From Flavobacterium frigoris PS1 (lineage in GTDB: Bacteria; Bacteroidota; Bacteroidia; Flavobacteriales; Flavobacteriaceae), in assembly GCF_000252125.1 (NCBI RefSeq), contig NZ_AHKF01000020.1, forward strand, positions 62,001-126,000: a stretch of 64,000 bases of DNA, in the 5' to 3' direction. A program made the position numbers and the translations under genes. Position 1 is the stretch's first letter, and every line of letters starts with the position of its first letter. This document shows positions 36,667 to 42,330 of the stretch, in pieces. Below the pieces are notes generated by a model. That model was not told where the DNA came from. It ran no database searches and saw only the letters and a program-made list of their open reading frames with translations.

Positions 36667-36821
36667 ATATTGTTTTTGGTGTTTTATGTTTTATCAAAAA
36701 TAGTTAGCAGGGATGAAATAATAATCAAAAATATACGTTAATTTGATAGATTGTAATTATAATAAATGTATTTTTACTGAACATTAAGAATGATAATTTA
36801 ACCTAAAAACTATAGTTTATT

Positions 36822-37019
36822 ATGTCGAAAATCATGTTTGATTACACAAAATCAATACTAGAAAGAGTAAGTTTCGATCCGATACTTTTTTGTAAGGAGT
36901 TAGAAAAAGCCATCAAATCATTATTACCTTATGAAATGGAACAATTAAGAGAATGGCTATCTACTTTTATAATTGAAAAACCAGAATTACAACAATGTTT
37001 ACTAATTGTAAATCAATAA
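36822..37019 (+). CDS. 65-residue tandem paralogue, copy 1
   Basis: This is the first of three consecutive same-strand genes encoding 65-residue proteins. The product is soluble, probably helical, with the shared frame D-Y-T-K-x2-LERVSFD, LFxKEL, LLPYE, an LxxWL motif and KPELxxC. By hand count it is identical to copy 2 at 39 of 65 positions. It has its own terminator 5 bases after the stop. The preceding intergenic region contains ATTGTA, 72 bases before the ATG. I recognise no named family and assign no function. Three copies with purifying-looking conservation argue that the ORFs are real. Confidence 0.75.
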   Translation: MSKIMFDYTKSILERVSFDPILFCKELEKAIKSLLPYEMEQLREWLSTFIIEKPELQQCLLIVNQ

Positions 37020-37023
37020 ATAG

Positions 37024-37054
37024 AAAAAGGAACCCCTAAAAAGGTTCCTTTTTT
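37024..37054 (+). terminator. Terminator of 65-residue paralogue copy 1
   Basis: AAAAAGGAACC and GGTTCCTTTTT form an 11-bp stem around an 8-base loop followed by T residues. The same stem recurs after copy 2. Confidence 0.9.
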
Positions 37055-37248
37055 ATTTTGTTTTTTTATGTTATTCTAAAAATTTTAAAAGGACTAAATT
37101 GCTTGTAAGATTTTTAATAAAATAAATCAACAAAAGAGTTTTTAGACGGTGTTTTTTGTACTTAGTAGGCTTTTTTTATGGAATTAAGAGTTTAAATCTT
37201 TAAATTTATATTGTATTTTAATAAGAAACCTTCTTAAACCGTTTAGTT

Positions 37249-37446
37249 ATGTCTAGAATGATTTATGATTACACAAAAGAGGTACTCGAAAGAGTTAGTT
37301 TTGACCAAAAGCTTTTTATCAAGGAATTAAAAAAGGCAGTTAAAATTTTATTACCCTATGAAATTGACCATTTAAGAAAATGGCTTTTGTTCTATACCAG
37401 TGAAAAACCAGAATTAAAAAAATGTTTGTCTATTATCAATGAATAA
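37249..37446 (+). CDS. 65-residue tandem paralogue, copy 2
   Basis: The second copy lies 427 bases from the first by start position and is identical in length. Its sequence keeps DYTKEVLERVSFDQ, KELKKAVKILLPYE and KPELKKC. It matches copy 3 at 43 of 65 positions by hand count, closer than to copy 1. An ATTGTA box lies exactly 39 bases before the ATG, as in copy 3. A terminator with the same stem as that of copy 1 follows directly. Function unknown. Confidence 0.75.
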   Translation: MSRMIYDYTKEVLERVSFDQKLFIKELKKAVKILLPYEIDHLRKWLLFYTSEKPELKKCLSIINE

Positions 37447-37447
37447 T

Positions 37448-37477
37448 AAAAAGGAACCTTTTGTGGGTTCCTTTTTT
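37448..37477 (+). terminator. Terminator of 65-residue paralogue copy 2
   Basis: AAAAAGGAACC and GGTTCCTTTTT form the same 11-bp stem as after copy 1, with a different 7-base loop. Confidence 0.9.
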
Positions 37478-37674
37478 ATGCCTATAAATGAGTTTTTAAA
37501 GAGAAAGTTTTGTGAAACCAATGAATTATAGGAATGCGATAAGTGAAAAGCGTAGTTGATTTTAACGCGCGGGACTAATATTTATTTCAGTTTGGCTCAG
37601 CTTTTGCATTACAGGGAATCAGGGTCATTATATTTATTGTATAATTAGATCAATAACTCTTTAAATAATGCGTT

Positions 37675-37872
37675 ATGTCCAGATTAATTTATTTTCATAC
37701 CAAAGATTCTCTTGAGAGAGTCAGCCTGAATCCTGAATTATTCAGTAAAGAATTAAAAAAAGCAATAAGAAACTTATTGCCATATGAAATGGAACATTTA
37801 AAAAATTGGCTACTGTTTTATACTGACAGCAAACCAGAGTTAAAAAAATGTATTTCTTTAATCTGTGAATAA
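37675..37872 (+). CDS. 65-residue tandem paralogue, copy 3
   Basis: The third copy starts 426 bases after copy 2. It keeps the LERVS, LFSKELKKA, LLPYEMEHL, NWLLFYT and KPELKKC blocks but has diverged at DYT (now FHT) and near the C terminus. Unlike the first two it lacks a downstream hairpin; its stop is 18 bases from the stop of the convergent oxyR gene. An ATTGTA box lies 39 bases before the ATG, as for copy 2. Function unknown. Confidence 0.75.
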   Translation: MSRLIYFHTKDSLERVSLNPELFSKELKKAIRNLLPYEMEHLKNWLLFYTDSKPELKKCISLICE

Positions 37873-41661: not shown

Positions 41662-42297
41662 ATGAGTGATTTTTATAAAAAAATATTAGATAATAATAAG
41701 GAATGGGTTCAGAATGCTTTAGCAAAAGACCCTAATTTTTTTGCAGACTTAGCCAAAGGGCAAACACCACCATTATTGTGGATAGGATGTTCTGATAGTC
41801 GTGTGCCTGCAAATGAAATCATTGGCGCAAAGCCAGGTGAAGTTTTTGTACACAGAAACATTGCTAACATGGTTGTACATTCTGATATGAATATGTTGAG
41901 TGTACTAGATTATGCAGTTAATATTCTGAAAGTAAAGCATGTGATTGTATGTGGTCACTACGGTTGTGGTGGTGTAAAAGCTGCAATGGGAAACCAATCT
42001 ATAGGGATTATTGATAACTGGATTCGTCATATTAAGGATGTTTACCGCTTACATAATGCATATTTAGATTCAATTGAAGATGAAACGGAGCGTTTTAATA
42101 CTTTTGTTGAGATTAATGCTAAGGAACAGGTTTTTGACTTGTCAAAGACGTCGATCGTACAGGCTGCCTGGAAAAATGGCCAGGAATTAAGCATTCATGG
42201 TTGGGTATACGGATTGAATTCTGGTTTTGTAACCGACTTAGGTGTTAATATTAGTTCTAATAAAGATTTAGACGAAGTGTTTCAATTACAGTTTTAA
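41662..42297 (+). CDS. Beta-class carbonic anhydrase
   Basis: The 211-residue enzyme interconverts CO2 and bicarbonate. Zinc ligands and catalytic dyad are visible in CSDSRVPANE (Cys, Asp, Arg) and HYGCGGVKAAM (His, Cys). Wording and length match the E. coli Can-type clade of beta-carbonic anhydrases. It is cytoplasmic, with no signal peptide. It follows the SulP transporter gene in the same direction and is followed by a terminator, so the two likely form a bicarbonate-handling operon that supplies carboxylases. Confidence 0.96.
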   Translation: MSDFYKKILDNNKEWVQNALAKDPNFFADLAKGQTPPLLWIGCSDSRVPANEIIGAKPGEVFVHRNIANMVVHSDMNMLSVLDYAVNILKVKHVIVCGHYGCGGVKAAMGNQSIGIIDNWIRHIKDVYRLHNAYLDSIEDETERFNTFVEINAKEQVFDLSKTSIVQAAWKNGQELSIHGWVYGLNSGFVTDLGVNISSNKDLDEVFQLQF

Positions 42298-42302
42298 AAT
42301 AT

Positions 42303-42330
42303 AAAAATCCGCTGAAAAGCGGATTTTTTT
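42303..42330. terminator. Terminator of the SulP-carbonic anhydrase operon
   Basis: AAAAATCCGCT and AGCGGATTTTT form an 11-bp stem with a GAAA loop, six bases after the carbonic anhydrase stop. It can also serve the convergent LETM1-related gene. Confidence 0.9.

Follow-up and report, generated by a model that had tools for sequence, protein, structure and literature searches.

Why would a bacterium keep three adjacent genes for one small protein, and are the copies equivalent in sequence and in control? The question is raised by a 64,000-nucleotide window (the whole stretch of DNA that we analyzed) of a 3.93 Mb Flavobacterium genome, in which three plus-strand open reading frames of 65 codons follow one another with their starts 427 and 426 bases apart (Table 1). 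A preliminary description of the DNA had reported these lengths, order and spacing, together with 39 of 65 identities between copies 1 and 2 (60%) and 43 of 65 between copies 2 and 3 (66%), and all of these counts are confirmed; copies 1 and 3 are 51% identical. An mnmC2-type gene lies upstream of the triplet. Downstream, on the opposite strand, is a LysR regulator, for which OxyR is the best NCBIfam model at a score under that model's cut-off, followed by a ferritin-domain, Dps-like gene. The host genome contains no further copy of the family, the only extra match (E 0.6, with an internal stop) being spurious. On balance, we lean towards the view that the genes belong to an uncharacterized family of small Bacteroidia proteins that was tandem-duplicated within Flavobacterium, and that the second copy is made with a surface programme.

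Table 1. Features of the triplet and its surroundings, in window coordinates
Feature	Position	Strand	Remarks
Promoter-like region of copy 1 (TACGTTAA ... TATTTTTAC)	36734..36777	+	read from orthologues' upstream regions
Copy 1 (MSKIMFDYTK...)	36822..37019	+	65 aa ORF, ancestral type by tree
Terminator hairpin after copy 1	37023..37054	+	pattern scan (both strands) and folding
Direct-repeat element before copy 2, period 20 bp	37133..37174	+	degenerate, 5 mismatches to IUPAC pattern
-7-like box of copy 2, holds the ATTGTA of the preliminary description	37207..37215	+	
Copy 2 (MSRMIYDYTK...)	37249..37446	+	65 aa ORF, single origin within genus by tree
Terminator-like hairpin after copy 2	37448..37477	+	pattern scan (- strand only) and folding
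Sigma-54-like sequence before copy 3	37592..37608	+	12/14 consensus positions, best such site in window
-7-like box of copy 3 (TATATTTAT)	37629..37637	+	
Copy 3 (MSRLIYFHTK...)	37675..37872	+	65 aa ORF, derived from copy 2 lineage by tree

No function could be assigned to these proteins, as the preliminary description had anticipated. With single proteins as queries, nothing of weight was returned from Pfam, NCBIfam, PHROGs, PADLOC or the PDB, and the same was true of alignments searched against Pfam, NCBIfam and the PDB. The best PDB sequence match (E 0.011) is to the repeats of a leucine-rich protein (4u06), and a wider profile reached at best E 0.24 there. Profile searches located homologues outside the host genome in hundreds of genomes. 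A three-row profile matched 282 of 299 Flavobacterium genomes, with one to three matches per genome except for four in G069 and five in G251, and, at the level of the order (Flavobacterium included), 121 of 296 genomes and 49 of 90 genera. Within the class Bacteroidia, 133 of 295 genomes and 71 of 155 genera matched a 41-row profile, three of the 133 marginally (E 0.0016 to 0.0055). Across the phylum, a 38-row profile matched 59 of 395 genomes, 57 of them within the class and the other two marginal (E 2.5e-4 and 8.9e-4); the family is not universal, and eight f5-family genomes in this last search yielded no match. Members are stand-alone proteins of about 60-70 residues that share a conserved core, V-S-(F)-D..LF..E..K with E38 and W45, as read from alignments of 41 and 46 rows. 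L13, V16, S17, E26 and K29 are invariant across the 41 rows, and copy 3 has L18-N19 where the family has F18-D19. We found no description of the family, or of the repeat element discussed below, within the open-licence literature, where both appear to be undescribed. A protein this common in Bacteroidia with neither a Pfam nor an NCBIfam model leaves a blank in the basic biology of an important bacterial group, and natural tandem copies provide a genetic handle on this unnamed 65-residue protein.

The history of the copies was read from a tree of 129 proteins, in which copies 2 and 3 form one clade (100/96) with copy 3 nested inside it (99/90), and in which single-copy Flavobacterium genomes fall outside that clade; the alignment is short, many forks are flagged as unresolved and the bootstrap did not settle. 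Copy 1 represents the ancestral type, copy 2 has a single origin inside Flavobacterium, and copy 3 was derived from copy 2 later on. The reported triplication is real in the window. It is not the rule across the genus: one or two matches were found in most of the Flavobacterium genomes searched, and an intact copy 3 in four genomes, the host included. Measured against F. degerlachei, dN/dS is 0.034, 0.166 and 0.107 for copies 1, 2 and 3, respectively, rough values from 65 codons only that are all far from 1, and purifying selection maintains all three copies. Of the signs that the preliminary description had named as speaking against the triplet, neither a lack of homologues elsewhere nor a dN/dS near 1 is seen. 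The triplet is more than chance, because homologues occur across hundreds of genomes and the copies are under purifying selection. Copies from L011, L023 and L028 also group with Flavobacterium in the tree; these are metagenome bins titled Rhizobium, Bifidobacterium breve and Sphingobacterium thalpophilum, and the titles may be wrong. Separate duplications occurred in other Bacteroidia, with two matches in each of the f77 genomes listed (e.g., G936, G975, G1006, G1034), and G627 has four family matches, on different contigs or far apart.

Both the protein sequences of the copies and their regulation have diverged; that tandem paralogues acquire new regulation is a known course of events. Four positions (5, 24, 28 and 44) differ in kind between the copy 1 type (73 rows) and copy 2 (29 rows). 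Position 28 is E in 69 of the 73 copy 1 type rows versus K or R in all 29 copy 2 rows, and position 44 is E in 57 of 73 versus K or N in 25 of 29 copy 2 rows. At both positions the charge differs between copies 1 and 2. C24 is found in 66 of 73 copy 1 type rows and 16 of 23 rows from other genera, but in only 3 of 29 copy 2 rows.

The preliminary description took the duplicated unit to include gene, promoter and terminator. For gene and terminator this stands: the GGAACC/GGTTCC stems 3' of copies 1 and 2 are present as described, at -15.1 kcal/mol each on the plus strand, with z values against shuffles of -4.23 (copy 1) and -4.35 (copy 2). There is no hairpin after copy 3, where the 43 bases 3' of the gene fold like shuffles (z -0.67). 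For the promoter it does not stand, as the upstream regions align no better than shuffles in three comparisons (p 0.16, 0.39 and 0.575), so only gene and terminator look duplicated. ATTGTA does begin exactly 39 bases upstream of the start codon in copies 2 and 3; in copy 1 the distance is 72 bases. We rejected it as a separate motif, since it coincides with a -7-like box (e.g., TATATTTACAGTA) of copy 2 orthologues; these boxes are named from the Bacteroidota -7 consensus. The promoter-like region of copy 1 is recognizable before many copy 1 orthologues, and the promoter type to which we assign it is presumptive. We discarded a PerR/Fur-like box upstream of copy 1, since its bases are not conserved among the orthologues listed, and the three Rfam matches (E up to 1) each score far under their gathering thresholds.

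What distinguishes the control of copy 2 is a direct repeat upstream of its orthologues, with a half-site of about RTGYATTTNRTCGRT and a period of 20 bp (21 in three rows). The element matrix was built from 27 of the 29 copy 2 rows; of the other two, L066 has its first half truncated and the element is missing from L039. When the matrix is built without the window and F. degerlachei, the window's site scores 29.7, against 18.2 for the next best place in 64 kb and 15.2 for the best of 30 shuffled windows. Across the 1.09 Mb of loci scanned, places scoring above 24 are found only upstream of copy 2, of a truncated copy or of a decayed remnant, two of these rows being repeats of the same places. 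A matrix-free check finds the period-20 signal upstream of copy 2, with a mean of 10.0 matches of 15 (other periods mostly give 7.8 to 9.1, and period 21 gives 9.3), and detects no such signal upstream of copy 1. The conserved element belongs to copy 2 orthologues and not to copy 1, and it is also found before many genes for secreted or surface proteins. The differential regulation that had been suggested from the separate terminators is upheld at least for copy 2, which has the direct repeat that copy 1 lacks. As to individual sites, the runner-up place in the window (42284-42325, minus strand, scores of 17.8 and 18.2 in two scans) is by eye a terminator-like inverted repeat and probably a chance match. 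An element persists beside a decayed copy remnant with internal stops (G436, L069 around 1354, minus strand), and another precedes a truncated copy (G146, L043 1804-2025).

Two rival accounts were weighed here. One is plain gene dosage, in which the copies share one job, more product is made and regulatory differences are incidental. Their equal length, conserved core residues and tandem position would suit it, but the duplication is old, with copies 34-49% different, copies 1 and 2 have different kinds of residue at four positions, and the element is retained across copy 2 orthologues; we consider dosage improbable as the explanation. The other concerns copy 3, which might be controlled by sigma-54, given that the best such site of the window precedes it, that F. 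degerlachei has an 11/14 site and that an RpoN match was found in all seven genomes searched, the host included. Sites with at least 10 matches are commonplace, however (26 in the window), and a -7-like box is recognizable at the usual place in all four copy-3 loci. Because the -12 GC is missing in two of the four loci compared (GG and GC, 12 bp apart, are kept in the window and F. degerlachei), we downgraded sigma-54 control to a doubtful possibility.

How far does the element extend beyond copy 2? With at most three mismatches, the pattern is present in all 54 multi-copy genomes at 1 to 13 sites each, whereas a reversed control gave zero sites in 47 of the 54 and at most 2 in any. Among 80 other genomes, 62 contain the pattern as well: 49 of 57 single-copy Flavobacterium, 2 of 3 that lack the family and 11 of 20 from other genera. 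Low counts in these are near the control, which gives up to 2, and the 10 sites in G372 and G454 are above it. Since the element occurs in genomes without copy 2, it is wider than copy 2, and its presence in the single-copy Flavobacterium genomes informs on how copy 2 is controlled and not on the protein's job. For the same reason, we gave up the idea that the element is driven by copy 2 itself. In the host genome, the pattern is found at two places, neither of which is copy 2; one precedes a protein of the L223 cluster (DUF4402 by inference) and the other a protein of the CAP cluster.

We read 93 distinct sites, comprising the best per genome and chosen ones rather than a random sample. Two mismatches or fewer were seen in 87 of the 93, and 69 of these 87 are followed within 330 nt by the start of an open reading frame of 100 aa or more; these frames fall into 34 clusters. 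By a simple rule, signal-peptide-like starts are present in 26 of the 34 clusters, versus 29% of 368 baseline ORFs. A Pfam scan covered 32 of the 34 cluster representatives, omitting the MtaB-like cluster (11 sites) and L180. Among the 25 of 39 downstream families listed are Por_Secre_tail, FGE-sulfatase (the protein is presumably GldK of type IX secretion, judging from its sequence), CAP, Peptidase_M14, DUF4402, fn3 and LRR. Non-surface families are found downstream too, namely a receiver-only response regulator, sigma-70 region 4 (an ECF-like sigma factor) and glutathione peroxidase. The same downstream gene types recur across different Flavobacterium genomes, and the direct repeat seems to mark, genus-wide, a set of genes for the surface and type IX secretion. 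It provides a testable way into how Flavobacterium controls adhesion, surface proteins and type IX secretion.

Particular loci illustrate the range of genes that follow the repeat. These include gldK-like genes (L211, L270), CAP-type genes (L181, L186, L197, L205, L229, L230, L244) and LRR-type genes (L200, L210, L254, L260, L262, L264). Eleven large Flavobacterium genomes have the repeat about 225-244 nt before a gene that we presume to be MtaB-like (L269, L271, L273, L232, L236, L237, L238, L243, L247, L251, L266); this gene is a poor fit to a purely surface-directed set.

We suggest that a DNA-binding regulator would act on the repeat, and that copy 2 would be made together with a surface, adhesion and type IX secretion programme. 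Copy 1 would be made more constantly; as the oldest copy, it looks like a housekeeping gene. In LytTR-type operators, a LytTR protein binds a direct repeat spanning roughly two turns of the helix, and LytTR genes occur in genomes with the element as well as in genomes without it. Points against our main explanation are this distribution of LytTR genes, the degenerate state of the window's own site, the reliance on chosen regulon sites, some of whose downstream genes do not encode surface proteins (MtaB-like at 11 sites, receiver-only, ECF-like), and an uninformative fold search. Among known systems, PorXY is reported to regulate type IX secretion in Bacteroidota, in P. gingivalis and F. johnsoniae (PMC5005315, PMC10951265), a likeness to the regulation proposed here; it differs in that PorX, according to the title of one report, does not directly regulate secretion genes (PMC5005315). 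PhoP of Riemerella anatipestifer offers a further likeness, a genome-wide binding motif of a response regulator within the order, but its most conserved bases are given as TTTAACA, which is not the repeat of copy 2 (PMC9603813).

For the protein itself, a single AlphaFold2 model (copy 2, 46 rows) predicts four helices (H2-18, H20-33, H36-52, H54-63) with pLDDT 81.6 and pTM 0.61. Foldseek returned only common helical arrangements for this model (best E 2.7), and the best VIA-align Z of 6.8 among 67 chains is middling for helical bundles. Inspection by eye revealed no signal-peptide-like start in the 65-residue proteins, and curated family searches gave no catalytic family match. The small helical form and these two negative results lead us to favour a putative small partner-binding protein. 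On this weaker footing, the protein would act through helices that bind a partner, and copies 2 and 3 would be versions for other conditions, serving or tuning that same partner. We speculate further, with considerable reservation, that the protein serves a core process (transcription or translation, for example), that copy 2 has turned in Flavobacterium into an output, and maybe also a feedback arm, of an undescribed regulon for the surface and type IX secretion that the 20-bp direct repeat marks, and that the cell exchanges one version of the core partner for another when it takes up surface life.

Two other roles were weighed against partner binding. A small basic helical RNA or DNA binder, nucleic-acid- or ribosome-associated and with copies that differ in affinity, is kept alive by the charge of most relatives: the median is +2 in 20 rows from other Flavobacteriaceae and +5 in 19 rows from other Flavobacteriales, and six class-level proteins range from +3 to +11. 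Wide retention, small genomes of the order included, would also suit a core machine. The 74 copy 1 type rows from Flavobacterium are slightly acidic, however (median -1, pI 5.3), and no nucleic-acid-binding family matched, the weak DnaD hits being below cut-off and covering half of the domain. This likeness to DnaD (TIGR01446; DnaB_2 in Pfam) consists of a short helical stretch with P-x-E...W and weak hits in 10 of 38 members, the best at E 0.0026, but the score of copy 1, 16.1 bits, falls short of the 24.95-bit cut-off and covers positions 3-34 of the 73 in the model, and a single member matches DnaB_2 (E 0.12). We judge a nucleic-acid-binding role rather unlikely. That the genes, being small, unnamed and in tandem, form a phage, toxin-antitoxin or other mobile family is far less credible still: the best PHROGs match has E 0.095, PADLOC gave no match at E 1, and, of the loci examined, 6 of 7 from Flavobacterium and 16 of 21 from other Flavobacteriaceae have a LysR/OxyR-like gene nearby. 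Copy 3 has a chance-level match to SprT-like proteins (PF10263; E 0.011, 16 bits against a cut-off of 25.6). The zinc motif of SprT-like proteins is HExxH, which is absent from all three copies.

Gene context yielded no steady partner for the family in the loci examined. In most of the Flavobacteriaceae loci, the family gene runs against the LysR/OxyR-like gene. A RuvB-like gene is on the other strand in 13 of 17 loci from other families of the order, and, counting two neighbours per side, 5 of 20 class-level loci have queG/ruvB-like genes beside the family gene (with a Pfam check for L159 only). In small-genome relatives (L117, L119, L122, L125, L127), the family gene lies shortly after a UbiX-like flavoprotein gene on the same strand, the neighbour at L117 matching Pfam Flavoprotein.
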